Assembly: GCA_949288725.1 (NCBI GenBank)
Contig: CASELF010000075.1
Coordinates: 1-64,000 of the forward strand
Direction of reading: 5' to 3'
DNA from: an uncultured bacterium
GTDB lineage: Bacteria; Cyanobacteriota; Vampirovibrionia; Gastranaerophilales; Gastranaerophilaceae
Length of the DNA stretch: 64,000 nucleotides
In this document: positions 9,852 to 28,727 of the stretch, piece after piece
Layout: the number at the start of each line of letters is the position of its first letter
Numbering within the stretch: the stretch's first letter is position 1
Notes under the pieces: generated by a model
Seen by the model: the letters and a program-made list of their open reading frames with translations, nothing else
What the model was told of the DNA's origin: nothing
Database searches by the model: none
Program-made: the position numbers and the translations under genes

Positions 9852-10709
9852 ATGACGATTAGTGTAAGTAGTAAGAAAAAACAGGTGAAGAAAACATTTG
9901 ATGAATTACTAAATGACCTAAAAACAAGCAATTCTGAAAAAGTCAGATACAATGCTGCTCGTATTTTAGGGGAGATGGGTGATTCCAAAGCGGTAGAACC
10001 GTTGATTGATGTTTTAAAACACGATAAAAACGGATCTGTAAGATTGTATGCCGCAAGAGCGCTTGGTGAATTAGGTGATTCATCAGCAACAGTTCACCTA
10101 ATTGAATCTTTACGTGAAGATCGTAACGTTGATGTTCGAGTTCGTGCTGCACGTGCGTTAGGCCGTTTAGGCGGTGAAATCGTTGTTGAACCATTGGTTG
10201 AAGCATTAAATGATGAAAATCCTCAAGTATGTATTACAGCAACAGATGCTTTAATCGAAATTGGTGATGTAGCAACAGATGCTTTAATTGCATCATTAGA
10301 TCACGAAAAAGTTAATGTAAGATGTGATGCAACAAGAGCATTAGGCGAAATCGGAAATAAAAAAGCGGTTGATAAGATTATCAACATGCTATATGATGAA
10401 TGGGTTAACGTAAGAATTTATGCAGTAACTTCATTGGGTAAATTAAATGATACAAAGGCTGTTCCTGCATTGATTGACGTTATGAAAAACACATCAGAAA
10501 ACGAATTAGTTAGAGCCGGTGCAGCAGCTGCATTAGGAGTTCTTAGAGATCCAAGAGCATTGATGCCTTTAAGAGAACTAATTATGGAAGCTGAAGAACT
10601 TGGCGAATTAGAAGACACTGCATTAAAATCTTTCAAAAAGATTATGGCAGCAAATTGGCAGTCTATTCCTGGGGCAACTCCTCAGAAAAAACCTGCAGGA
10701 ACATTTTAA
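9852..10709 (+). CDS. HEAT-repeat (PBS-lyase type) protein
   Basis: 285 residues made almost entirely of seven to eight ~31-residue HEAT repeats of the PBS-lyase subtype: VRYNAARILGEMGD, VRLYAARALGELGD, VRVRAARALGRLGG, VCITATDALIEIGD, VRCDATRALGEIGN, VRIYAVTSLGKLND. Each has the A-x-x-L-G-x-x-G/N turn. The subtype is common in cyanobacteria, where members attach or remove bilins, but many are only protein-binding scaffolds; nothing here indicates lyase activity. GGAGGAAAG precedes the ATG and a terminator follows. Its position before a kinase/receiver pair suggests a signalling scaffold, as inference. Confidence 0.9.
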   Translation: MTISVSSKKKQVKKTFDELLNDLKTSNSEKVRYNAARILGEMGDSKAVEPLIDVLKHDKNGSVRLYAARALGELGDSSATVHLIESLREDRNVDVRVRAARALGRLGGEIVVEPLVEALNDENPQVCITATDALIEIGDVATDALIASLDHEKVNVRCDATRALGEIGNKKAVDKIINMLYDEWVNVRIYAVTSLGKLNDTKAVPALIDVMKNTSENELVRAGAAAALGVLRDPRALMPLRELIMEAEELGELEDTALKSFKKIMAANWQSIPGATPQKKPAGTF

Positions 10710-12885: not shown

Positions 12886-12914
12886 TTGACATAATAATAT
12901 GCTTAAAATAATAT
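12886..12914 (+). promoter_or_regulatory. Promoter of the riboswitch-controlled operon
   Basis: Consensus TTGACA (12886-12891), 17-bp spacer, TAATAT (12909-12914). Transcription would start near 12920, at the first bases of the conserved RNA element. Confidence 0.7.
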
Positions 12915-12919
12915 CTAAA

Positions 12920-13056
12920 TAAGAGGAAATGGAGTGAAGATCTCCAACTGTAGCCGCAGCCGTAAAAGTCGGAATGCTCAAAAATAACTATATTCACGTG
13001 CAATATGGATATAGCAGATATTTTTGTAGTGTCCTCTAAAGATAGAGGATTTTTTT
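12920..13056 (+). promoter_or_regulatory. Cobalamin-riboswitch-like leader (compact form)
   Basis: The RNA resembles the cobalamin riboswitch core (Rfam RF00174-like). It has GAGGAAAT, then P5-like arms TGGAG / CTCCA around TGAAGAT, then CTGTAGCCGCAGCCGTAA, then GTCGGAATGCTC, the counterpart of the B12 box. GAG (12923-12925) can close against CTC at its 3' end as P3. GTGAA (12934-12938) is complementary to TTCAC (12993-12997), which sits at the loop of a downstream AT-rich hairpin, as expected for the L5-L13 kissing loop. No P1/P2 helix exists because the predicted transcript starts at P3. It ends in a hairpin covering the next gene's ribosome binding site. Confidence 0.72.
13032..13056 (+). 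terminator. Hairpin acting as terminator and/or ribosome-binding-site blocker
   Basis: TCCTCTA (13032-13038), loop AAGA, TAGAGGA (13043-13049), then seven T residues and immediately the ATG at 13057. The right arm contains AGAGGA, the only Shine-Dalgarno candidate, so the stem both resembles an intrinsic terminator and hides the initiation site. The same AGAGGA occurs at 12922-12927 in the aptamer's 5' strand, a possible competing partner for TCCTCT. Confidence 0.75.
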
Positions 13057-13776
13057 ATGTCAATAAAATCAGCACCTGTACGAACACAAGTTGCCAAACC
13101 AGGAACCTGTCCACATGGTTTGCCGTTAGGAGCATGTCCTATTTGTAGTGGAATGGCAGGCGGCAATTCTACAAGTAAAAGGGATATTCCGCGAAATGTA
13201 GGTGAGATGTCATATAATCAATGTGCTGCAATAGGTGCAATGTTAAGAGCGCAAAAACAAGCGCGAGAAAGTGCTAAAGCGGCTCAAGAAAGTCATATTC
13301 AAGCACTTGTTGATTTTCAAAAAAATATAAACTCAACTCACCAAAGATTGATGGATTTATCCGCATTTATAAATAATAAAATGCCTAAAATTATCGCACT
13401 TCCAACAAATTTTATACTTATAAATTTTGTTGTCAAACCTCTTCAATTTCTGCAAAATCTTCCGACAAATTTTGTCAATTTTACTCAAAATATAAAGCAA
13501 AAATTTACGGATATATCTGATAAATTAGCTGCCATATATGGAGAGATGGATACGGCGATAAAGGAAAACTTTTCAAAATTTGTTTCAAATTTGAAAAAGA
13601 AGTTCAAGTTTTCATTTTTCGTATTTAGCACTTCTGAAACAGAAGATGAAGAACAAAAAGTTGAAGAAGCAAAACGCTTATTTGAACTTAAAACATATAT
13701 TCACAAATTATATAAAAATATAACGCACAAAACAAAAAAGGATGATGAAAAAGATGTACATAAATCCGTTGAATGA
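13057..13776 (+). CDS. Unknown protein with CPHG...CPIC N-terminal motif
   Basis: 239 residues. Near residue 20 it has CPHGLPLGACPICSG, a Cys/His cluster that looks like a small metal-binding knuckle, followed by a Gly-rich GMAGGN. The rest is helical and lysine-rich, with a repeated LPTNF motif (ALPTNFILINF and NLPTNFVNF) and a likely amphipathic or membrane-contacting region around residues 115-150. The C-terminus is highly charged. First gene of a three-gene run behind the riboswitch-like leader, overlapping the next gene. I recognise no family; a direct role in cobalamin handling is not shown. Confidence 0.72.
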   Translation: MSIKSAPVRTQVAKPGTCPHGLPLGACPICSGMAGGNSTSKRDIPRNVGEMSYNQCAAIGAMLRAQKQARESAKAAQESHIQALVDFQKNINSTHQRLMDLSAFINNKMPKIIALPTNFILINFVVKPLQFLQNLPTNFVNFTQNIKQKFTDISDKLAAIYGEMDTAIKENFSKFVSNLKKKFKFSFFVFSTSETEDEEQKVEEAKRLFELKTYIHKLYKNITHKTKKDDEKDVHKSVE

Positions 13777-15250
13777 TTCGGAAAATATAAGGCAACAAAG
13801 AAATTTAACAAATTCTCAAAGGAAGAATTTAATCAACACAAAAGAAGGTGTTGTTGTAAATAATAATGTTGGCATAAATAATTTGTCAAGTTCAAGAAAT
13901 GCGTATTTAATTTCAAATAATACGCAGATGCCTGAAAATTTGTATTCTGATAACAGAATTATAGATAAAAAATTGTTGCCTTTAAGTGCTATTGCACTTG
14001 GTGTAATGTCAGTAATTACAATGGCTACGGCATTGATAAGCAGAAGCGCAAAAGCAGCAAAAGATTTGCCAAAAGAAAAGTGGCTTCCTACACTGACAAG
14101 AAATGTTAATTTGAGCAAAGAAACATATCAAATAATTTATCAAATGGTGCAAAGTCCTAATAAAAAAACTTTTATTGCAGCAGGTGGAGTTTTGGCACTT
14201 TCTGCAATGGCATTTATGGGAAAAACATTTTTTGACGGTTATAAAGATATTTGGGTAAAGCGTAAAGAGGCTGATATTCAAAAAAATCTTCAAGAAAATT
14301 TGATTGATGTAGAAACTCAATCTTTTTCGGGAAAAATTCAAATTATAAGAAGTATGCTTTCTAAGTATGCCAATGATTTTGAAAAATATTTGATTTCAGA
14401 TGATGACCCAATATTGCCAAATTTTGGCAAGTCAAAATATTTGATGTCTTTTACTTCCTCTGATAAAAATACAAACCAAAATAAAAAGTCATCTAATTGG
14501 GGAAGTGTTTTACTGGGTTTTGGAACGGCTTTATCTATTGTAGGGCTTGGCTATTTGTCATTGCGAAATTTAACAAAAGGTAAAATCCATTTGCAGCAGA
14601 ATTTGCAAAAAATTAAAGATACAATTTCATCAACAGTTAAAGCCTCAGGAGAGTATCCTAAAGATACTGATAAAGATACACTGGAATATTTGTTCCTGTC
14701 GCTTGATGGTTCTGATAGAGCAGAAGAATTTATAACAAATCAAATTAATAAATTAAAGTGGAATAAATCGGAAGATAAAACAGAATTTTTAAATAAAATT
14801 TTATCAAAAATGAAAGCCTCAACAACGCATGTAAATCCAAATATTGGCGGTGACGGAACTCCTCGACCTGCATTTAATTCTTTTGTTGATGATTATAGGG
14901 CATTTTTTTATAACTGGTTAATAGATACGGATAATCCTCAATTTAAGCAATTATTTTTAGGAATAACAGGGGTAAGTGCAATAAGTTATGGAGGGAAACT
15001 TGCAGGTGATGCAATAAAAGAAGTTCAGGTTAAAAAGATTAATGCAGAAACCGAATTAGAACTTCAAAAACGTCTTGTTTCAACTGAATTACGTAATTTT
15101 AAATCCAAAAAAGATTCTGCAATTTTACCACTTGTTGAGGAATTTTATAAACAAGCAGATAGCGGAAAACGTACTAAAGAAGAATTAAAATCCATGGCCG
15201 AAAATATATTATTCGAAGTTAAAAACGGACCGCCTTATGTGTATTCATAA
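13754..15250 (+). CDS. Multi-pass membrane protein, unknown
   Basis: 498 residues. About four hydrophobic segments: LLPLSAIALGVMSVITMATAL (near 77-97), FIAAGGVLALSAMAFMG, WGSVLLGFGTALSIVGLGYLSL and LFLGITGVSAISYGGKLAG. They are separated by long Lys/Glu-rich soluble segments. The frame also opens at 13742, but AAAAAGGA at 13735-13742 is a better distance from the ATG at 13754, so that start is preferred. It overlaps the preceding CDS and is probably translationally coupled. No known family seen; the repeated TM-plus-charged-linker layout suggests a scaffold rather than a transporter. Confidence 0.7.
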   Translation: MYINPLNDSENIRQQRNLTNSQRKNLINTKEGVVVNNNVGINNLSSSRNAYLISNNTQMPENLYSDNRIIDKKLLPLSAIALGVMSVITMATALISRSAKAAKDLPKEKWLPTLTRNVNLSKETYQIIYQMVQSPNKKTFIAAGGVLALSAMAFMGKTFFDGYKDIWVKRKEADIQKNLQENLIDVETQSFSGKIQIIRSMLSKYANDFEKYLISDDDPILPNFGKSKYLMSFTSSDKNTNQNKKSSNWGSVLLGFGTALSIVGLGYLSLRNLTKGKIHLQQNLQKIKDTISSTVKASGEYPKDTDKDTLEYLFLSLDGSDRAEEFITNQINKLKWNKSEDKTEFLNKILSKMKASTTHVNPNIGGDGTPRPAFNSFVDDYRAFFYNWLIDTDNPQFKQLFLGITGVSAISYGGKLAGDAIKEVQVKKINAETELELQKRLVSTELRNFKSKKDSAILPLVEEFYKQADSGKRTKEELKSMAENILFEVKNGPPYVYS

Positions 15251-15267
15251 ATTTATGGAGTTTTAAA

Positions 15268-15768
15268 ATGATACAACAAATCCAGATAACAAATTATCCA
15301 AATACATATCAATATCAAAAGCCAGGTCAGCCATATATTTGCGCATCTTGCCAATTACCTTCTAATGGAAAAAATTATTGTACATTTGATAATAATGAAG
15401 TTGATTATTTTGTAAAACAAAGAGAAAACGCGCTTCCATATCTTTCGGATATTTTAATTCATTCTAATAACGAAGCCCAAGTTACAGAAGCACTTTATGT
15501 AATGAACAGACTTCACGATTCAGGAGTTAAAGGAATTGAGAAATTATATCCGATATTTGCAAGGTTTAATAATACGGAATCTCCAAATATCCAAACCTTT
15601 TTAGCCGGAATTTATCGAAAAATACAAGTTCCTGATGCGTTTGGACCTTTGGTTAATATGCTGATTAAAAATTCCCTAAAACCCAATAATCCAAACCAAA
15701 CTTTTGATCCTAATGAAGAAATTGGCGGTGCAATATTAAGTTACCTGTCGGATAGATTTAGGCAATAA
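15268..15768 (+). CDS. Small helical-repeat protein, unknown
   Basis: 166 residues, third gene of the riboswitch-led group, 17 bp after the second with a GGAG site. A Cys pair (CASCQLP) and a further Cys in NYC lie near the N-terminus. Residues 45-160 read like two or three HEAT/ARM-type helical hairpins (ALPYLSDILIHSNNEAQVTEALYVMNRL, IQTFLAGIYRKIQVPDAFGPLVNML). It could be a binding adaptor for the upstream proteins. No family assigned. Confidence 0.7.
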   Translation: MIQQIQITNYPNTYQYQKPGQPYICASCQLPSNGKNYCTFDNNEVDYFVKQRENALPYLSDILIHSNNEAQVTEALYVMNRLHDSGVKGIEKLYPIFARFNNTESPNIQTFLAGIYRKIQVPDAFGPLVNMLIKNSLKPNNPNQTFDPNEEIGGAILSYLSDRFRQ

Positions 15769-18224: not shown

Positions 18225-21200
18225 ATGCAGAAGAAATTTAGACGATTATTAACTATTGCAGCTTGTGCTACGTTATTAAGTAGTACAGGACATATAGTTA
18301 TGGCAGCCGAAGATGACGCTACCACACCTACGTCTCCATCTATCTACGGTACAATAATAGACGTTACCTCAACAATGTATGCTAATGGTGTAGATGGCTC
18401 TACGGGTATTATCTATGATATACATGACTCCGAACCATATTGGCATAGTGGTGGAACAAACACCTTATATGTCCATGATGGTGGGGATTTAACTGTTCAC
18501 GATTATACATCTTCTTCTCTTACAAATGGATTATTAATAGCAACCAGCGGTAGTGTAACAGCAGATAAAGATGGAACACTTACTATAGGTAAAAATAGTT
18601 TTATCAGACGCGATGTAAATCTTTCGGTAGTTCAAGATGCAACCCTTGCGATTACGGGCGGGGAAGTATTAATTGATACCGGTGATAGTATAAATGGTGA
18701 GATAACAGTAACCAATGGGTTATTGGAATTAGATTCCTTTAATAGATCACCTTCTACGACATCTTCAATAAACCAAACAGGTGGAACAATTACTATTACC
18801 GGTACAGGCATGGATTTTGCCAGTGATAGAGATAGTATTACCGGTGGTACTGTAAATGTTGGTCAGAATGCAACAGGTGGTTCTCTTGGAGTTAGTCATG
18901 GTTATGTTTCTTCAGGAGCAACTGTTAATATCTTTGAAAACAGTTCAATGGAGGTTAAAGGCGGTAATGTTACATTAGATGCCGGCGATACATATAGAGG
19001 TGATGTAACTTTATCCAGTGGAGAATTAAAACTTGATTCTGCCTCTAAGACATTTAATGCAACATATACTCAATCCGGTGGTGATGCAATTGTTACAGGT
19101 TCTGGTTTTGACTTAAATAATTCAACTGATAATATTTCCGGAGGCGATTTATATATCGGAGATGGAACGACAACAGGTGATTTGTCTGTAACTGAAGGTA
19201 CAATTGCAACAGGTGCCAATGTAAACGTTGGTGCCGGCAGTTCTTTGAATTTGAAAGGCGGTAATGTAAGTCTTGATAACAAAGATATCATTAACGGTAA
19301 GATTGATGTTGCAAACGGTACATTAAATCTTAATGATGCAGAAAAAGCCACCACTGCAACATTTGTACAAAACGGTGGTACTACAAATGTTACAGGAAAT
19401 AGTTTTGTTTTAAATAATTCTGAAGATGCTATCAATAATGGTAATTTGAATATTGGTGGTGATAACGGTTCAGGAACATTAACATTAAAAGGCGGTTCTG
19501 TTGCTTCTGAAGTTGATGTTAATATTTCAGGCGGGTCTAATGTTGATATAAAAAATGGCTCAATGTCACTTGATTCAAATGACACTTGGGCAGGAGATGT
19601 TAATGTTCAGGGCGGAACTTTAAATATTAAAAACACCAATAAAACCGGGGCATTAACTCAGACTGACGGAACAATCAATGTTTCCGGGAATGCTTTTGAC
19701 TTAAATTCAACAGAAGATAAACTTGATGGCGGAACATTAAGTATTGGTGATGGTTCAGTATCATCAACATTGACGGTTTCCAATGGTACAATTACCAGAA
19801 ATGAAGATGTTTATATTAACAACTATTCTAATATGAATATTTCTGGCGGTAATGTAACTATTGATTCTACAGATAGTTGGAATGGAAATATAAATCTTAC
19901 GGAAGGAGATTTAAGTCTTGAAGAGGCGAATAAATCTGCAAGCGGAATTTTCCATCAAACAGGTGGAGATACTGTTGTTACCGGTAGAACTTTTGACTTA
20001 AATAATGACCTTGATTATATTGAAGGCGGAAGTTTAACTGTTGGAAATGGTACATCATCTTCCAAATTAACAATGTCAGAAGGTTCTATTGCCAGTGGTG
20101 CTACTGTTGATTTAACAAAGAATGCAACAATAGAAGTTAGTGGTGGAGATTTAGTATTAGATACAGCAGATACTTGGAATGGTAATTTAACAGTTTCTGA
20201 TGGTACGGCAAAATTAAACAGTATCAGTAAAAATGAAGATGGTATATATACTCAAACAGGCGGTTCTGTAACAGTATCAGGTCAAGGACTGGATTTGAAT
20301 AATTCAGAGGATTTAGTCAATGGTGGTTTACTTCAAATTGGTAACGGAACAGAAACAAGTTTGACATTATCTCAAGGTACTATTGATACCGGTGCTCAGG
20401 TAAATATTAATAAAAAAGCTGAGGTTAATGTAGATGGTGGTAATTTATATCTAAACTCAGGTGATACTTGGTATGGAGATGTAAATGTAACTCAAGGCGG
20501 TTATGTAAGTATTGCCGATATAAATAAAAATGCACTGGGTACATTAAATCAAACAGGTGGTAATATTGATATTACTTCTACTAAATTTGAATTAAATAAT
20601 ACAGGAGATAAAATTTCAGGTGGTACTTTAACTGTAGGTTCAGGTTCAAAGTCAACTACGTTAGAAGTTTCAGAAGGTACTATTGACGAAGATGCTACCG
20701 TAAAATTGAATTCAAGTTCATTTATTACTGTTATGGGTAATGGTGATGTAACTTTGGATTCAGGAGATACGTGGAATGGTGGTGTTGAGGTTAACGGCGG
20801 TACTTTAACTTTAAATGATATCAATAGTAAAAATGGTGTATTATCACAATTAAAAGGTACAACCAATATAAATGGTACAGGATTAAATCTCGATAATGAA
20901 GATGACCAAATAATTGGTGGTACTTTAAATATCGGGGATGGTACTACTTTATCAAACTTGACAGTTTCAAAGGGTACAATAACAGAAGATGCAAGTGTTA
21001 ATGTTAATCAAAATTCTACATTAACCGTAAATAGTAGTGGTACGGTTGAATTAGGAAAGACAAGTTCAATCAATGGTAATATTGATGTTCAAGGCGGAAC
21101 ATTCAGTGTAGATTCTGTATCAAAAGATGCTGGCGGAAAGTTTACTCAATCAGGTGGTACAACAACAATTAAAGGTTTTGGCTTTGATTTGAATAATTCC

Positions 21201-24200
21201 GGAGATAGTATCTCAGGCGGAACATTCAATGTTGGTGATGGTACAGAGGCTAGTGAAGTTAATATTTCAAAGGGTGTAATTCAATCATCAGCAGTTACAA
21301 ATATTAATTCAAACGGTAAGTTGAACATTTCAGGCGGTACCGTAAGTCTTGGCAGTGATGATAAATACAATGGTGAAATTGATTTATCAAGCGGAGAATT
21401 AAATTTACAATCAGTTACCAAAGGTGAAAATGGTGTATTAAATCAAACAGGTGGTGTAACGACAATTACAGGAACATCATTTGGACTTGACAATGTATAT
21501 GATAGTGTAACTGGTGGTACTTTAAATATCGGTAACGGTACAATTGCAACAGTAGTAAGTGTTGGTGGTGGTACTATTACGTCAGATGCAACTACAAATA
21601 TCAATTCAAATGCGACATTGGGACTATCCGGAGTCGGAAATGTTTCATTAGACAAAGCAGATAATCTTGATGGTAATATTAACATGTCAGGCGGTACATT
21701 ATCTCTTGATAATGTAGATAAAAATGCTCAAGGTGTATTTATTCAAACAGGCGGTTCAACAACAGTAACTGGAACAGGGTTTGACTTAAATAATTACCAA
21801 GATAGTATTTCAAAAGGCTCATTAACAATAGGTGATGGAATAAAAGAGTCAGATTTTTCAATATCAGAAGGTACCGTAGAAGGTGATGTTCGTGTTGATT
21901 TGAATGCAAATTCTCAATTGAATCTGTCAGGAGGTACATTAACTCTTGATAGTAAAGATTCTTGGGATGGCGATATCAATATGACAAGTGGAGAGTTAAC
22001 ACTTGATAATGTTGATGAGAAAAATGGAACATTCACACAAAAGAAAGGTACCACAAATATTGTTGGTAAAGGTTTTGATTTAAACAATGCAAAAGATAAT
22101 ATCAGTGGAGGAACTGTAAATATTGGTGACGGAAAAGTATCATCTGATTTAACAGTTTCTCAAGGTACGATTGGTGCAGGTGCAATCGTAAACTTGAATG
22201 AGTTATCTAAGTTGAAAGTAAACGGCGGTAATGTAACCTTTAATGAAGAAGGTTCAATAAATGGTGATATTTCAGTTTCAAACGGAACATTGACCTTAAA
22301 TTCAATTGGTAAAAATGCTAATTCAAAATTAGAGCAAACAGGAGGTTCAATTACCGTAACCGGTGATGATTTCGATTTGAATAATGAAGATGATAACATC
22401 AGCCATGGCTATTTCATCGTAGGAACAGATGCCAACAAAGCGGATATGTCCATTTCAAAAGGTACAATTGGAAAAGATGCAACTACAATTATATCAAATG
22501 GCAGTACTGTAAATGTAAATGGTGGTAATTTATCATTAGACGGTGATACTGATACGCTTGCTGGTAACTTGAATATATCAAGCGGAAAATTAGAATTGGA
22601 TTCAATATCTAAAGAAGAAGGAAGTACCTTCACACAAACAGGTGGCGATACTTCAATTACCGGCAATGGATTTTCATTAAATAATGCAAATGATATAATT
22701 TCAGGCGGAACAGTTCATGTTGGCGGTACTGTAGCTGGAAGTTCTCTAGGAATTGATGGCGGTACAATTTCTTCATCTGCTGTGGTTACTGTGGATAAGG
22801 GTAGTTCTGTTATTATGAGTAACGGTACAATAACAGATGGTGCTACTATGAATTTCAAAGACACAAGTAACTTTGAAATGGCAGAAGGAATAATAACCGA
22901 TGGTGCTACTGTAAACTTGGATAATAATTCTCACTTTACAATGGATAAAGGTACGATTACTAATGATGCTGTAGTTAATGCATCAAATTCAAGTACAATA
23001 GACATTGGTCAAGGCATTATATCAGATGGTGCACAGATAAATTTAGATAATGAAGCCGTAATGAACATAGAAAACGGAGCAATAAAAGGTGGCGCAGAAG
23101 TAAATCTTAGCGATACCAGCGTTTTGAATATGGAAAACGGCAATATAACAAAGAACGCAACTGTTACATTAGAAGACAGAGCCGAATTTAATATGGATAA
23201 TGGAATGATAGCTGAGGGTGCAAACCTAAATCTAAATTCACAAAGTTCATTCAATTTAAAAGGCGGTGAAGTTGCAGAAGATGCAAACATTGTATTAGAT
23301 CAGCATGCAACAATAAACCAAACAGGTGGTAAATTAGCATTAAATTCATCAGATACATACAAAGGAACAATCAATTTATCATCAGGAAATCTAGTTCTTA
23401 ATGGAGTAAATAAAGATCCTTTAGGTGTATTAAAGCAAACAGGTGGCGATACAAAAGTTACAGGTATTGGTTTTGACTTGAATAATGCCAAAGATATGAT
23501 TTTAGGTGGTTCATTAACTGTTGGAGATGTAAATGATGTATCATCAATGACAATTTCTAATGGTACGGTATCAAAAGATGTTGATACAACGATAGTTCAA
23601 GAAAGTACCTTAAACTTGGCAGGTGGAAAATTAACGTTAGACAGTGAAGATACTATTGACGGTAATTTGAATGTAACATCAGGTAAATTAAATCTTGATT
23701 CAGCAGAAAAAAGTGAATTTGGAACGTTTACCCAAACAGGTGGCGAAACATTTATCACAGGAAATGGTTTTGATTTAAATAATGAAAACGATAATATATC
23801 AGGTGGAAAAGTAATTGTTGGCGGAACTACACCTGGTAGTGATTTAACATTATCAGAAGGTTCAATTTCATCAACAGCAAATGTAAGGGTAGATAATGAT
23901 AGTACATTAAATCTATCAGGTGGTTCAATAACATCAGGTGCTACAGTAAACATTGAAGATTCAAGTGGATTGACTTTATCTGATGGAGAGATAACCGATA
24001 AAGCGGTTATAAACTTTGAAGATACTTCTAATATGACAATGACAGGCGGAGAAGTATCAAATAGTGCAGTGCTGAATTTTGAAGATACATCATCATTTGA
24101 AATGTCAAACGGTACAATAAAAGATGATGCACAGGTAAATATTACAGAAAATTCATCAATGACGATGAATAAAGGTAAACTAACATCTGGCGCAGCATTG

Positions 24201-27200
24201 AATGTATCAAATGAAGGTATCTTTAATATGAATGGCGGTATAGTTTCAGATGACGCTAAGGTTAATTTGGAACATGAAGCAGTCATGAATATGTCAGATG
24301 GTGTTGTCAAATCAGGTGCTAGCATAAATGTTGCAGATACCAGTGTATTGAATATGACAAATGGTAACATCACTGGAACCGCAACAGTGAACTTGAGTGA
24401 TCGAGGAACCTTCAACATGGATGAAGGAACCTTTAATGATGGTGCAACTCTTAATATTGATGATCAGGGTAAGTTTAACATAAACGGCGGATCATTTGCT
24501 TCAGATGCAAATATGATTATAAGCGAGCATGGTGTAGTAAACCAAGCAGGTGGCTCAGTTGGATTAGATAAATCTGATACCTTCAATGGAATATATAATA
24601 TGACAGGTGGCGATTTAACTTTAGACGAAGTCACCAAGGCAGAATCTGCAGAATTTACTCAAACCGGCGGTAATACACTAGTTACCGGAACAACATTTGA
24701 CTTGAATAATACTGCGGATAAGATTTCCGGAGGTTCATTAACTGTAGGAACGGCAGATGAAGCATCAACATTGACAATATCAAAGGGTTCTGTCGGCGCA
24801 GAAACAGATACAACTTTAGTGAAAGACAGTACAATCAATGTAACGGGCGGAAAACTTTCATTAAATAGCAAAGACAAGATTGATGGTAATATCAATTTGT
24901 CAAAAGGCACTGTTAACTTAGATTCAGTAACAAAAGGTCAATTTGGAACATATATACAAACAGATGGTACTACAAATATCACAGGTACAGGATTTACCTT
25001 TAATAATGAAAATGACATGATCTCAGGTGGTACTGTTGTTGTAGGTGGAGAAGTTGCAAACAGTGAATTTAATCTGGCAGATGGTACAATATCTTCAAGT
25101 GCTGCAGTCAAAGTGAATAATGGAAGTTCAATCAATATGTCTGGCGGTCAAATCACAAATGGTGCGACTGTTGCATTAAATGATACTTCTAAATTCAATA
25201 TGACAGATGGTGAAATTTCAAATGAAGCATCATTAGAATTCAATGATACAACTCAGATGAATATGTATGACGGCACTATTACTGATAAAGCTAATTTGGA
25301 TTTTAACGATGAATCTCAAATGAATATGTCAGATGGAGATATCACAAACGGATCAACTCTTAACTTTAATGATAACAGCAAATTCACAATGACAAGTGGC
25401 GAAATATCAGAAGGTGCGCAAATTAATCTAAGAGATGATGCTCAAATGGATATGACAGACGGAGAAGTAAATTCAAGTTCTGTAATAACATTAAAAGATC
25501 AAAGCAGTTTCCAAATGAACAGTAGTTCAATTACTGATAATGCAGTTGTTAATATGAACAATGAATCAACCATGAATGTATCAGATGGAAAGATAGCCAT
25601 GGGTGCAACAGTAAATATGGATGATTACAGTACATTAACTATTGATGGTGGCGCAATAACAGATGAAGCAAAAGTTAATGTTAATGATAGATCAAATGTC
25701 GTGTTAACAGATGGAACGATAAGTGATGCAGCTGTAGTGAACTTGAATGATGCAGGTTCATTAACAGTAGAAGATAATGGAATTGTTGATGAAACCGCTG
25801 TAATAAATATAGGAAATCGCGCAACAGTAAACCAAAACGGTGGACAAATTACCTTGAATAGTGATGATACTTATAATGGTACATTGAATATTGCAAGCGG
25901 TGATTTGACAATAAAAGATATATCAAAAACTGAATCTGCTGTATTTAAACAAACCGGCGGAAATACAACGATTTTGGATACAAAATTTGCATTAAACAAT
26001 GATAAAGATAGAATTTCCGGTGGAAACTTGACAATAGGAACAGTTGCCGATCCTGCGATATTAACAATTAACAGAGGTCAAGTAGACAAAGAAGTATCAG
26101 TAGATGTATCAAAAGGCAGCGGAATTGAAGTTAGCGGCGGTTCATTAGTTTTAGATGGTGAAACTGATGATTTGATGGGTTCATTGACAATATCAAACGG
26201 TACATTAGAACTTGATTCAATGTCAAATAAACATCCTGAAGGTGTATTTACACAAACAGGTGGTGAAACACATGTTAAAGGTCAAGGATTTACAATGAAT
26301 AACGAAAATGATGTTATTTCAGGCGGTGTTGTAAATATTGGCGGAGATACACCTGATAGCGAACTTGCAATGACAGCAGGTACAATAAAAGGTGATGCTG
26401 TTGTAAATATTGATAATGGCAGTAACTTAGATGTTGGTGGAACTGCAGTAGTAACAGATGGTGCTAAAATAACAGCAACAGATACAAGTTCAGTTAGTGT
26501 ATCAGGAGGTACAGTAACCGGTGGTGCTGAAATCTATTTGAAAGATACAAGTGATTTGAATGTTTCAGATGGTGAAGTGACATACGATGCATATATCAGT
26601 TTGGGTGATGATGCTACATTAAATCAATCAGGCGGTAAAGTTGCATTAAGTGGTAATGAAGATGTTGTTGACGGCAGCATAAGTATTTCCGGCGGTGATT
26701 TAACTCTTAAAGATGTCGAAAAATCTACTGATGAAAAAGTTACATATAATCAAACAGGTGGTAATGTAAATCTTGAAAATTCAAAACTTGCATTAAATTC
26801 TACAGCAAGTCAAATTTCCGGTGGCGCATTAAATCTTACCAACAGTACGTTAGATGTAAATAATTCAGCAGAAAATACATCAGATTTGAGTATGACAACA
26901 AGTGAACTTACACTTCGTAACGGTAATAAATACACTGTAACAGGCGGTGATATTGATAAAGAGTCAAAATTAACAGTAGAAAAGAATGCAACATTGGCAG
27001 TTGATGGAGAGGATGCTGTAGTTAGAATAGACGGAAATAACGATGTAATTACAGGTAACATTGAAGTTGCTGATGGTAAATTATATATTTCTGATGATTT
27101 GACAAAAGTTACTAATTCCGAAGGTAATTATGTTCAAACAGGTGGTGATGTTGAAGTAAGCGATTCAACATTAGTATTGGAAACTGCAGGAAGCAAGATT

Positions 27201-28727
27201 GCATCAGGTAGTATGTCATTAAAAGATAATTCAACATTAACAATATCTGGTGCAAGTACCGGTGTTACAGGTGGTGCATTGTCTTTGGATGATACATCTA
27301 AATTGAATTACTTATCAATGGCAGGAATGGCTCAGACTACTGATAAAATTCGTTTGAATACATCAGGTTTTATGAACATGATAAACGGTGTAAGTACTAA
27401 AAATACAATAGACAGTTTAGTCGTAAATAACGGTTCAGATGGCGATGGTCAGGCAGATTTTGCAATAGATATTAATGCAAGAGCAGATGGTAATGCTGCA
27501 TCAGATTCATTTAAGGCAAATACAATTTCTGTTTCAAACAAAGATGAGGCTGGTGTAATTAACATTTCTGACTTCCAGTTGAATGGTGATGTTTATGGTT
27601 CAGCTGCTCCGATAAGTAAACATATTAGATTAGGTAAAGTATTTGATTCAGATAAGATAAGTGATGAAATTACATTTACAAGTACAGATAAAGAAATCTT
27701 TACACCGATTGGTAATTATAAATTGAACGCATCATCAGCAAATGATGGAAGTTACTCATTAGATTTGACAAGTTTCAACCCTCAAGTATTCAGAGGTCAG
27801 GTAACAACTGCGGCTTCATTCTTAAATCAATTATCAGTAAACGATTCGTTGTTTAATAAAGCACAAATCAGAAGATATAGTCCAAGTTATGGCGATATGT
27901 TCAGAAACAGAACTGCTTTAATTGAAGGTACAGCAAGTTACGATAGGACAATGAGAGAAAGTGAAGTTTGGGTAGAAGCAATAGGAAACTTCGAAACATT
28001 CAAGTTCAATAACAGCCTTGATAAAGTTCGTAACAATTCTTGGGGTATGATAGTAGGCTCAGACTTTGGTGTTAAACGTCTAAGACGTGGTTGGTCTTGG
28101 GTACCTACAGGATATATCGCATATACAGGCGGACACCAAACATTTAATGGTGTAAGTGCTTATCAAAACGGCGTACAACTCGGCTTTATGTCAAGTTGGA
28201 TGAGAGGTAAGTTTATAGAATCTGCATTGATTAATGCCGGCATTTACAATAATGATATGGATGTTGCAGGAAATTCTGAAAATGCCTTCGGATATTTTGC
28301 AGGTTTAGCAAGTAAGACAGCATACGATATTCCAATCACACATGACTTCAAGATTCAACCTGCAATCACCTTGTCATATAATATGTTTGGAAAACAAAAC
28401 TTCCACAGTGATTATGGTAATATGCACATGATGACAGGCTTCTTGAATGGTGTAAACATTGCACCTAACTTGAACTTCATATTCCAAAAAGAAACTTGGA
28501 GTGCATATGCACAGATTTCATACGCTTGGAACTTCTTTGGCGGTCTGGATGGACGAGCAGGAAATGTTGATTTGAATAATGTTAGATTGTCAGAAGGTTA
28601 TATACAATACGCACTTGGTGTAACAAAATCCTTCTCTGACAGATTAGATATGTATGCTCAGGCAACATTCAGAAACTTCGGCAGAACAGGTGTTGTTTGC
28701 CAAGGTGGTTTGAACTGGAGATTATAA
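18225..28727 (+). CDS. Giant autotransporter adhesin (type Va)
   Basis: 3500 residues. A signal peptide (about 1-27, ending HIVMA before AEDD) is followed by a passenger of ~3150 residues and a C-terminal ~290-residue autotransporter beta-barrel (from about RNRTALIEGTASYD to the terminal NWRL). The passenger has about 22 copies of a motif Q-T-G-G-x-T-x-V/I-T-G-x-x-F-D-L-N-N, spaced ~99 residues in the first third. Between later copies are arrays of 21-residue units (pattern N-M-x-x-G-x-I-x-x-G-A-x-V-N-L-x-D-x-S). Such Gly/Asn/Thr-rich repeats fold as a long right-handed beta-helix. I saw no cysteine in the passenger. BamA (54.3 kb) would insert the barrel. AAGGGA precedes the ATG closely. Monocistronic. 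Confidence 0.93.
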   Translation: MQKKFRRLLTIAACATLLSSTGHIVMAAEDDATTPTSPSIYGTIIDVTSTMYANGVDGSTGIIYDIHDSEPYWHSGGTNTLYVHDGGDLTVHDYTSSSLTNGLLIATSGSVTADKDGTLTIGKNSFIRRDVNLSVVQDATLAITGGEVLIDTGDSINGEITVTNGLLELDSFNRSPSTTSSINQTGGTITITGTGMDFASDRDSITGGTVNVGQNATGGSLGVSHGYVSSGATVNIFENSSMEVKGGNVTLDAGDTYRGDVTLSSGELKLDSASKTFNATYTQSGGDAIVTGSGFDLNNSTDNISGGDLYIGDGTTTGDLSVTEGTIATGANVNVGAGSSLNLKGGNVSLDNKDIINGKIDVANGTLNLNDAEKATTATFVQNGGTTNVTGNSFVLNNSEDAINNGNLNIGGDNGSGTLTLKGGSVASEVDVNISGGSNVDIKNGSMSLDSNDTWAGDVNVQGGTLNIKNTNKTGALTQTDGTINVSGNAFDLNSTEDKLDGGTLSIGDGSVSSTLTVSNGTITRNEDVYINNYSNMNISGGNVTIDSTDSWNGNINLTEGDLSLEEANKSASGIFHQTGGDTVVTGRTFDLNNDLDYIEGGSLTVGNGTSSSKLTMSEGSIASGATVDLTKNATIEVSGGDLVLDTADTWNGNLTVSDGTAKLNSISKNEDGIYTQTGGSVTVSGQGLDLNNSEDLVNGGLLQIGNGTETSLTLSQGTIDTGAQVNINKKAEVNVDGGNLYLNSGDTWYGDVNVTQGGYVSIADINKNALGTLNQTGGNIDITSTKFELNNTGDKISGGTLTVGSGSKSTTLEVSEGTIDEDATVKLNSSSFITVMGNGDVTLDSGDTWNGGVEVNGGTLTLNDINSKNGVLSQLKGTTNINGTGLNLDNEDDQIIGGTLNIGDGTTLSNLTVSKGTITEDASVNVNQNSTLTVNSSGTVELGKTSSINGNIDVQGGTFSVDSVSKDAGGKFTQSGGTTTIKGFGFDLNNSGDSISGGTFNVGDGTEASEVNISKGVIQSSAVTNINSNGKLNISGGTVSLGSDDKYNGEIDLSSGELNLQSVTKGENGVLNQTGGVTTITGTSFGLDNVYDSVTGGTLNIGNGTIATVVSVGGGTITSDATTNINSNATLGLSGVGNVSLDKADNLDGNINMSGGTLSLDNVDKNAQGVFIQTGGSTTVTGTGFDLNNYQDSISKGSLTIGDGIKESDFSISEGTVEGDVRVDLNANSQLNLSGGTLTLDSKDSWDGDINMTSGELTLDNVDEKNGTFTQKKGTTNIVGKGFDLNNAKDNISGGTVNIGDGKVSSDLTVSQGTIGAGAIVNLNELSKLKVNGGNVTFNEEGSINGDISVSNGTLTLNSIGKNANSKLEQTGGSITVTGDDFDLNNEDDNISHGYFIVGTDANKADMSISKGTIGKDATTIISNGSTVNVNGGNLSLDGDTDTLAGNLNISSGKLELDSISKEEGSTFTQTGGDTSITGNGFSLNNANDIISGGTVHVGGTVAGSSLGIDGGTISSSAVVTVDKGSSVIMSNGTITDGATMNFKDTSNFEMAEGIITDGATVNLDNNSHFTMDKGTITNDAVVNASNSSTIDIGQGIISDGAQINLDNEAVMNIENGAIKGGAEVNLSDTSVLNMENGNITKNATVTLEDRAEFNMDNGMIAEGANLNLNSQSSFNLKGGEVAEDANIVLDQHATINQTGGKLALNSSDTYKGTINLSSGNLVLNGVNKDPLGVLKQTGGDTKVTGIGFDLNNAKDMILGGSLTVGDVNDVSSMTISNGTVSKDVDTTIVQESTLNLAGGKLTLDSEDTIDGNLNVTSGKLNLDSAEKSEFGTFTQTGGETFITGNGFDLNNENDNISGGKVIVGGTTPGSDLTLSEGSISSTANVRVDNDSTLNLSGGSITSGATVNIEDSSGLTLSDGEITDKAVINFEDTSNMTMTGGEVSNSAVLNFEDTSSFEMSNGTIKDDAQVNITENSSMTMNKGKLTSGAALNVSNEGIFNMNGGIVSDDAKVNLEHEAVMNMSDGVVKSGASINVADTSVLNMTNGNITGTATVNLSDRGTFNMDEGTFNDGATLNIDDQGKFNINGGSFASDANMIISEHGVVNQAGGSVGLDKSDTFNGIYNMTGGDLTLDEVTKAESAEFTQTGGNTLVTGTTFDLNNTADKISGGSLTVGTADEASTLTISKGSVGAETDTTLVKDSTINVTGGKLSLNSKDKIDGNINLSKGTVNLDSVTKGQFGTYIQTDGTTNITGTGFTFNNENDMISGGTVVVGGEVANSEFNLADGTISSSAAVKVNNGSSINMSGGQITNGATVALNDTSKFNMTDGEISNEASLEFNDTTQMNMYDGTITDKANLDFNDESQMNMSDGDITNGSTLNFNDNSKFTMTSGEISEGAQINLRDDAQMDMTDGEVNSSSVITLKDQSSFQMNSSSITDNAVVNMNNESTMNVSDGKIAMGATVNMDDYSTLTIDGGAITDEAKVNVNDRSNVVLTDGTISDAAVVNLNDAGSLTVEDNGIVDETAVINIGNRATVNQNGGQITLNSDDTYNGTLNIASGDLTIKDISKTESAVFKQTGGNTTILDTKFALNNDKDRISGGNLTIGTVADPAILTINRGQVDKEVSVDVSKGSGIEVSGGSLVLDGETDDLMGSLTISNGTLELDSMSNKHPEGVFTQTGGETHVKGQGFTMNNENDVISGGVVNIGGDTPDSELAMTAGTIKGDAVVNIDNGSNLDVGGTAVVTDGAKITATDTSSVSVSGGTVTGGAEIYLKDTSDLNVSDGEVTYDAYISLGDDATLNQSGGKVALSGNEDVVDGSISISGGDLTLKDVEKSTDEKVTYNQTGGNVNLENSKLALNSTASQISGGALNLTNSTLDVNNSAENTSDLSMTTSELTLRNGNKYTVTGGDIDKESKLTVEKNATLAVDGEDAVVRIDGNNDVITGNIEVADGKLYISDDLTKVTNSEGNYVQTGGDVEVSDSTLVLETAGSKIASGSMSLKDNSTLTISGASTGVTGGALSLDDTSKLNYLSMAGMAQTTDKIRLNTSGFMNMINGVSTKNTIDSLVVNNGSDGDGQADFAIDINARADGNAASDSFKANTISVSNKDEAGVINISDFQLNGDVYGSAAPISKHIRLGKVFDSDKISDEITFTSTDKEIFTPIGNYKLNASSANDGSYSLDLTSFNPQVFRGQVTTAASFLNQLSVNDSLFNKAQIRRYSPSYGDMFRNRTALIEGTASYDRTMRESEVWVEAIGNFETFKFNNSLDKVRNNSWGMIVGSDFGVKRLRRGWSWVPTGYIAYTGGHQTFNGVSAYQNGVQLGFMSSWMRGKFIESALINAGIYNNDMDVAGNSENAFGYFAGLASKTAYDIPITHDFKIQPAITLSYNMFGKQNFHSDYGNMHMMTGFLNGVNIAPNLNFIFQKETWSAYAQISYAWNFFGGLDGRAGNVDLNNVRLSEGYIQYALGVTKSFSDRLDMYAQATFRNFGRTGVVCQGGLNWRL
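18765..22735 (+). repeat. Tandem ~99-residue (297-bp) beta-helix repeats
   Basis: About 14 degenerate copies, each with the sequence of blocks QTGG-TxITG-FDLNN, then xISGGxLxIGDG, then LxVSxGTI, then ATVNxNxxSxLxxxGG, then xxLDSxDxWNGxIxVxxGxLxLxxxxK. Identity is protein-level; DNA copies have diverged, so this is an old expansion. Confidence 0.85.
22788..26630 (+). repeat. Interspersed arrays of 21-residue (63-bp) repeats
   Basis: Four arrays (about 22788-23310, 23880-24535, 25090-25835, 26395-26630) alternate with further 99-residue units. Each unit reads roughly F-x-M-x-x-G-x-I-x-x-G-A-x-V-N-L-x-D-x-S. One unit of 21 residues is about one beta-helix rung. Confidence 0.8.

Follow-up and report, generated by a model that had tools for sequence, protein, structure and literature searches.

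The window analysed here is a stretch of 64,000 nucleotides (nt) from contig C75 of a draft assembly that totals 2.2 Mb across 102 contigs. The organism is a member of the Gastranaerophilales, the non-photosynthetic gut relatives of cyanobacteria. The window carries a three-gene operon located directly behind a cobalamin (B12) riboswitch. We postulate that this operon encodes a B12-repressed system for the acquisition or inward handling of corrinoids, built from previously undescribed protein families. Our confidence in this reading is evenly balanced, and we prefer it because it best joins the regulation of the operon, its distribution and its membrane protein. Two features expected of an acquisition system were found, namely a cobalamin switch that is both present and conserved, and a distribution complementary to that of other B12 routes. 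Among named records, the closest relative of the second gene, at 94% identity, lies in a Candidatus Gastranaerophilales genome. In agreement with a preliminary description of this DNA, which had proposed a three-gene operon, three open reading frames (ORFs) lie downstream of the riboswitch aptamer, at 13057-13776, 13742-15250 and 15268-15768, all on the forward strand. The operon and its leader comprise the following features:

12886..12914, forward strand: sigma-70-like promoter TTGACA-17-TAATAT, scoring 10/12 in a consensus scan, by itself not above chance
12911..12987, forward strand: aptamer of an adenosylcobalamin riboswitch, AdoCbl-II (RF01689); cmscan 48.1 bits against a gathering threshold of 36.5, expectation value (E) 1.5e-8
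12922..12927, forward strand: AGAGGA strand of the aptamer, a proposed antiterminator complementary to the TCCTCT of the terminator 5' arm
13031..13056, forward strand: putative terminator, hairpin GTCCTCT-loop-AGAGGAT (13031-13050) and T run, from a terminator scan
13057..13776, forward strand: gene 1, 239 amino acids (aa), with a CPHGxPxGxCPxCxG knuckle close to the N-terminus and a helical remainder
13108..13151, forward strand: DNA of the CPHG...CPIC motif, from a motif pattern search
13754..15250 (ORF from 13742), forward strand: gene 2, a membrane protein of about 498 aa, overlapping gene 1
14117..14386, forward strand: gene 2 repeat half A, residues ~126-215, a transmembrane (TM) helix and a long amphipathic helix, from a profile-profile match
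14888..15160, forward strand: gene 2 repeat half B, residues ~383-473, from the same kind of match
15268..15768, forward strand: gene 3, predicted soluble helical-repeat protein of 166 aa, armadillo (ARM)/HEAT-like, accessory

The cobalamin control suggested in the preliminary description is borne out by the aptamer, which is the sole Rfam match at gathering within the window and the only AdoCbl-II match in its own genome. Its score above gathering and its position in a 5' leader with an expression platform place it in the AdoCbl-II class. The leader resembles AdoCbl-II riboswitches with an intrinsic-terminator platform in aptamer score, position, and downstream terminator and ribosome-binding site; it differs in that it governs genes of no described family and that its outer P1 stem is apparently not transcribed, its ligand being assumed from sequence. 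The −10 box of the promoter overlaps the outermost strand of the Rfam aptamer model, and a similar promoter ending at most 20 nt from the aptamer core was found in 61 of 93 leaders, compared to 2% of shuffled leaders. Because the promoter ends inside this outermost strand, and near the core in so many leaders, the outer P1 is probably left out of the transcript, which would start at the aptamer core.

The scan for terminators returned two on both strands, as opposed to 0.2 in shuffles. A terminator-like element between aptamer and start codon was present in 83 of the 100 leaders of related loci (1.1% of shuffled leaders); this leader set comprises those of the 101 loci described below that have a readable CPHG motif, minus L188, whose contig starts within gene 1. 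The 3' arm of the terminator, AGAGGA (13044-13049), doubles as the ribosome-binding site of gene 1, from whose ATG it is separated by seven T. The aptamer AGAGGAAAT was present in 73/100 leaders and the exact TCCTCT...AGAGGA-T-start layout in 61/100, with both occurring together in 51/100; the more remote families have terminator sequences that differ from that of the window. Folding of the leader in the absence of ligand gave −36.7 kcal/mol for the terminator form versus −33.8 kcal/mol for the antiterminator form. The terminator and the competing TCCTCT/AGAGGA pairing between aptamer and gene 1 suggest that this leader is a cobalamin OFF-switch, and from the terminator we infer repression by B12.

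We propose the following mechanism. When corrinoids are scarce, the TCCTCT of the leader would pair with the AGAGGA of the unliganded aptamer, so that no terminator forms and the AGAGGA ahead of the ATG stays free as a ribosome-binding site. When corrinoids are present, the folded aptamer would free TCCTCT, which would then pair with the AGAGGA ahead of the ATG, both stopping transcription and masking the ribosome-binding site. The three products would cooperate at the inner membrane. There, gene 2 would supply a duplicated core of TM helix and long cytoplasmic helix, gene 1 a partner, coupled to it in translation, with a Cys3-His metal knuckle, and gene 3, in most families, a helical-repeat adaptor. 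The direction of the switch, the formation of a complex, its location and the corrinoid as substrate are what we deduce here.

The association between switch and operon is highly conserved. We compared 98 genomes, including the window's own, 81 of which (G000-G080) constitute the order. Relatives of gene 2 occurred in 75 genomes, 74 of them within the order, and AdoCbl-II matches in 85 of the 98 (E up to 0.001, so that some are below gathering). An AdoCbl-II match was located 711-1428 nt upstream of gene 2, on the same strand and contig, in 68 of the 75 carriers of that gene. Four others (G060, G066, G078 and G079) displayed an RF00174 aptamer above gathering ahead of gene 1. Homologues consistently lacking the leader had been set in advance as the finding that would speak against the preliminary description. 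This was not observed: a significant aptamer of the cobalamin clan was found upstream in 72 of the 75, with a sub-threshold aptamer in two and none in one. The sub-threshold cases are G063, whose aptamer carries an insertion (20.9 bits), and G092, a remote genome outside the order (gene 2 E 2.5e-4) with a 28.2-bit aptamer (E 0.022) 65 nt upstream of gene 2, in which no gene 1 was found. Because RF00174 stands in place of AdoCbl-II at the operon in four genomes, B12 control has, judging from these leaders, outlived a swap of aptamer family. In family f3, the operon aptamer of five genomes (L267, L268, L270, L278, L279) scores best as RF00174, a type exchange at a fixed locus.

Conservation of gene content was assessed in 101 loci, consisting of the window, 20 chosen distant loci and 80 related loci. 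Genes 1 and 2 were present in every one of them (gene 1 being truncated in L188). The conserved unit is made up of the leader and the operon genes only: the best other neighbour occurred in 36/101 loci, some contigs ending early, and no neighbourhood clue was found beyond the three genes. An 'FxG' motif suggested by eye for the clade was not enriched (0.20 vs 0.14 per kb) and was discarded.

Gene 1 carries the motif C-P-H-G-x-P-x-G-x-C-P-x-C-x-G, within which C18, P19, H20, G21, C27, P28, C30 and G32 do not vary in either alignment (35 and 80 sequences). With C18, H20, C27 and C30 as conserved Cys/His ligand residues, this protein is a candidate Cys3-His metal-knuckle protein, and no Pfam zinc family matches it. 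The CPHG pattern in DNA occurred in 49 of 59 genomes, in single copy except in G002, which has two; the backward-pattern control gave 0. Comparison of gene 1 to PDB sequences retrieved only helical and coiled-coil look-alikes (best apolipoprotein A-IV, E 4.7e-4), which we took to reflect composition.

The likely start of gene 2 is ATG 13754 rather than 13742, because the methionine at 13754 is the conserved one (73/80 relatives). Genes 1 and 2 overlap in 79 of 80 loci, by 11 nt in 50 of them. The preliminary description had read this overlap as a sign of a coupled complex; this holds in part, the overlap being conserved and the complex itself a prediction. The four TM segments claimed there hold in part: hydropathy displayed three clear peaks (residues 81-99, 142-163 and 256-274), and a fourth membrane helix may lie near residues 399-420, because gene 2 is internally duplicated. 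Its halves (~126-215 and ~383-473) are homologous, with a profile-profile probability of 97.5%, E 5.5e-12 and 20% identity. The predicted structure of gene 2 is poor, with a mean predicted local distance difference test score (pLDDT) of 59.4 and a predicted template modelling score (pTM) of 0.37. A fold search on this model gave no PDB match below E 2.0, and its result was not used. No gene 2 relative was found among phages and plasmids at E 0.001.

Gene 3 yielded a confident model (pLDDT 82.1, pTM 0.79) of eight helices in a helical-repeat fold. Its closest PDB shapes are armadillo, HEAT and alphaRep proteins, a weak resemblance with all E at or above 0.14. The HEAT-like character assigned in the preliminary description may stand as regards this general shape, with no match below E 0.1 among these structures; a HEAT or ARM match was found in neither Pfam nor NCBIfam. 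The gene was present in 95/101 loci and missing from L072, L075, L076, L079, L080 and L184, the contig of the latter ending there. It was also absent from all eight stretches of family f3 that were examined (L076, L079, L080, L267, L268, L269, L270 and L279), which marks gene 3, on present genome content, as an accessory component.

None of the three proteins had a Pfam or NCBIfam match above cut-off, and comparison of genes 2 and 3 with PDB sequences found no relative up to E 1. This agrees with the earlier statement that the products resemble neither cobalamin synthesis or uptake proteins nor B12 enzymes. Gemini_AL1 (0.0092), EpoR and other sub-cut-off Pfam matches, as well as matches in PHROGs and PADLOC, were at chance level and were rejected. 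The three protein families are new to Pfam and NCBIfam, and the riboswitch adds a further member to an established class. The suggestion of an undescribed B12-responsive membrane system is supported, having survived every test that was run.

The genes governed by other B12 switches in the relatives provided insights into the regulatory company of the operon. We examined 43 further switch sites along with nine earlier ones, with Pfam checks on representatives and the remaining names taken from translations. Most of the other AdoCbl-II switches precede nrdDG, which encodes the class III ribonucleotide reductase. Others are located ahead of metE (G059, G065, G096), of a TonB receptor followed by FecCD and an ATPase, that is btuB-btuC-btuD (G064, G065, G067), of an OprB-like porin with CbiM (G073) and of prp-like genes (G096). 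These genes make up the classical B12-repressed regulon, so that the company of the operon is informative. Switches were also observed before further ORFs of 472 aa (L229, G061), of 541 aa with a MetE-like start that then diverges (L209, G075) and of 94 aa (L056, G056). The same switch type precedes the BtuB-BtuCD import operons of relatives, which the window operon replaces in distribution; unlike the BtuBCDF importer, its products include no TonB receptor, FecCD permease or ATP-binding cassette (ABC) ATPase according to Pfam.

This replacement is visible across the order, in which 74 genomes have the operon and seven lack it. CbiC, a marker of corrin synthesis, was found in three of the seven genomes without the operon (G059, G061, G073) versus none of the 74 with it. 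FecCD, counted at E below 1e-40, was found in three of the seven (G065, G067, G074) versus three of the 74; weaker matches in G059, G070 and G077, and an additional one in G065, were excluded. One or the other occurred in 6/7 genomes without the operon versus 3/74 with it (Fisher p 1.7e-6, treating genomes as independent). Since FecCD permeases are used for iron and haem as well, a FecCD match alone does not prove BtuC; that of G065, G067 and G074 is preceded by a riboswitch and a TonB receptor, and that of the operon carrier G056 is on no contig with an AdoCbl-II match. The seventh genome without the operon, G071, had no riboswitch, NrdJ or CobO/BtuR match. Draft completeness was 66% for G074 and 87% for G071. 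TonB receptor barrels (PF00593) were found in seven of the 59 relatives searched, a set that does not include G043, and in none of G000-G035, and both PF01032 and PF00593 are absent from the window's own genome.

In a tree of NrdJ, some forks of which are open, the operon-less f2, f4 and G073 nest among members of f5 and f3 that carry the operon. This nesting points to about three or more independent losses of the operon, each beside a known B12 route. Another lineage without the operon, genus g25 of f6, lacks NrdJ and therefore cannot be placed in this tree.

The presence of nrdDG and metE under the same class of riboswitch and in the same genomes as the operon raises another explanation, namely that the operon is itself a B12-independent substitute, a membrane-linked process that serves during corrinoid shortage and is repressed by B12 as metE and nrdDG are. 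This explanation expects the operon to be kept under selection in genomes lacking both NrdJ and BtuR, as is the case, and it accounts for that clade better than acquisition does. However, no enzyme domain was found in the three proteins with Pfam or NCBIfam, no B12-dependent partner process was identified, and 61 genomes with NrdJ would be left without a B12 supply that we could find. The distribution also differs from that of these backup enzymes: the operon is absent from most B12-supplied genomes, although such genomes keep metE under a riboswitch (G059, G065). The persistence of metE where the operon is missing sets the operon apart from a B12-free backup, and we regard this explanation as unlikely.

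The need for B12 among operon carriers was evaluated from their dependent enzymes. NrdJ (TIGR02504), the adenosylcobalamin-dependent ribonucleotide reductase, had matches in 86 of the 98 genomes, 72 over cut-off, and a CobO/BtuR adenosyltransferase was found in 74 of the 98; most members of the order have one, and many were observed to have two CobO/BtuR genes. Among the 74 operon carriers of the order, 64 displayed NrdJ, and 61 of those lacked CbiC and FecCD; G053, with only sub-cut-off NrdJ pieces, was scored as lacking it. Three of these 64 have no CobO/BtuR (G004, G025, G056). An additional AdoCbl-II switch was present in 34 of the 64 carriers with NrdJ versus none of the ten without, in which the operon retains its own switch and no other B12 switch was found.

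Several observations weigh against an acquisition system. The ten operon carriers without NrdJ, the window's own genome included, also lack CobO/BtuR, and in the window's clade the operon is nonetheless under purifying selection, with ratios of non-synonymous to synonymous substitution rates (dN/dS) of 0.06-0.21 for the three genes, indicating that all three still work. PduO-type adenosyltransferases were found in 0/98 genomes and QueG remained below cut-off throughout the order, in a survey of B12-dependent enzymes that took in no search for EutBC (ethanolamine ammonia-lyase) or PduCDE (diol dehydratase), leaving the B12 need of these carriers unexplained. As for the products themselves, no ATPase or known transporter family was recognised among them with Pfam and NCBIfam, no signal peptide or outer-membrane part was apparent by eye, and neither structure model nor fold search gave an informative fold for gene 2. 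In addition, G064 and G069 have the operon together with a riboswitch-governed btuB and FecCD, G043 has it alongside a switch-governed TonB receptor without FecCD, and G076 has it with no visible riboswitch.

The own genome encodes an 840-aa protein annotated by TIGR03960 as a 'B12-binding radical SAM protein' (SAM, S-adenosylmethionine; 612 bits, cut-off 462). Going by this name only, it is possible that this protein is the remaining user of cobalamin, in a non-adenosylated form. PF02310 had also been considered as an indicator of B12 enzymes; its matches in the own genome were weak and fell in TIGR03960 radical-SAM and MiaB-like proteins, and its counts were left unused.

The persistence of the operon in genomes without the common B12 enzymes could also mean that the corrinoid is a mere cue, and that the operon builds an envelope or contact structure, suited to life beside B12-releasing cells and unrelated to B12 metabolism. 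A membrane protein with long helices, a helical-repeat adaptor and no metabolic domain would be compatible with such a structure. There is also precedent for a B12 switch upstream of a gene of uncertain function, in ppe2 of M. tuberculosis, as reported in PMC11260477. Yet complementarity with CbiC and FecCD would not be expected of a cue, and the maintenance of control through a change of riboswitch type is a better fit to a product tied to its ligand. We consider this explanation improbable, somewhat more so than a substitute.

Meanwhile, the combination of TonB receptor and operon without FecCD in G043 means that the operon could act after entry through the outer membrane. The products might then handle corrinoid or cobalt within the cell, by trafficking, loading or storage at the membrane, with no transport across it. 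The invariant Cys3-His knuckle of gene 1 and the lack of any ATPase family match would both be in line with this. It is, however, the least probable of the explanations weighed here: genomes with BtuBC or CbiC would need such trafficking as well, and the operon is absent from them. The TonB receptor gene of G043, which belongs to the window's genus, lies under its riboswitch at L277:2-2005 on the reverse strand, and its best NCBIfam match is TonB-B12, at 108 bits and under cut-off.

Returning to corrinoid acquisition, we propose, more tentatively than the reading given at the outset and short of an even chance, that the operon represents a new kind of B12 acquisition in bacteria with an outer membrane. 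It would join a duplicated membrane protein to a partner with a Cys3-His knuckle and to a helical-repeat adaptor, would do without an ABC ATPase and in most cases without a TonB receptor, and its aptamer family would have been exchanged while control was kept. Under this proposal, most Gastranaerophilales would obtain their B12 chiefly through this operon, and a related family of the class would have a two-gene counterpart that is analogous in part.

B12 is made by only about one third of prokaryotes while nearly all have a B12-dependent enzyme, according to PMC9296465. How non-producers obtain this cofactor is a standing question. Most of the order has the adenosylcobalamin-dependent NrdJ and adenosyltransferases, yet no CbiC or FecCD, and the operon is a testable candidate for the missing route. 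For three conserved protein families, it also offers a first indication of function. If import is not its function, the operon would point to a B12-governed process beyond the usual regulon, which would likewise be news. Titles and opening lines of abstracts, with subscription journals and preprints outside this scope, yielded nothing bearing on the operon, and the passages searched in Soo et al. 2014 (PMC4040986) included no statement on B12 in the order.

Two other families of the class, f10 and f12, display a different arrangement, in which AdoCbl-II precedes a hydrophobic protein of 500-580 aa with repeated H-x-L-D-S segments (L274:1414-3843, L211:340-2862, L276 from 1597 and 3206, and L275). 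In family f12, this protein is followed by a Gly-rich helical protein of 226-255 aa. No Pfam match over cut-off was obtained for those of these switch-governed proteins that were scanned, and the f10 and f12 genomes carrying such operons lack CbiC and FecCD. The two-gene operon of L274, L211 and L276 resembles that of the window in combining a cobalamin switch with a large hydrophobic and a smaller helical protein, and differs from it by having no CPHG motif. Its smaller protein showed a weak match to gene 1 (hhalign 90.6%, 32 columns); homology of its large protein to gene 2 was not convincing, with a best E of 0.0028 in a very small set and a negative profile comparison.

The surroundings of the operon in the window include further genes. 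Upstream, positions 9852-10709 encode a HEAT/PBS-lyase-type repeat protein (HEAT_2, 5.7e-46), followed by histidine kinase and response-regulator GGDEF genes immediately before the riboswitch; this arrangement is little conserved beside the operon in the 101 loci. After the operon, the neighbour on the opposite strand is a gene for LL-diaminopimelate aminotransferase. Further downstream, an ORF of 3500 aa (18225-28727) displays, as judged by eye, many similar repeats and an autotransporter-like end.

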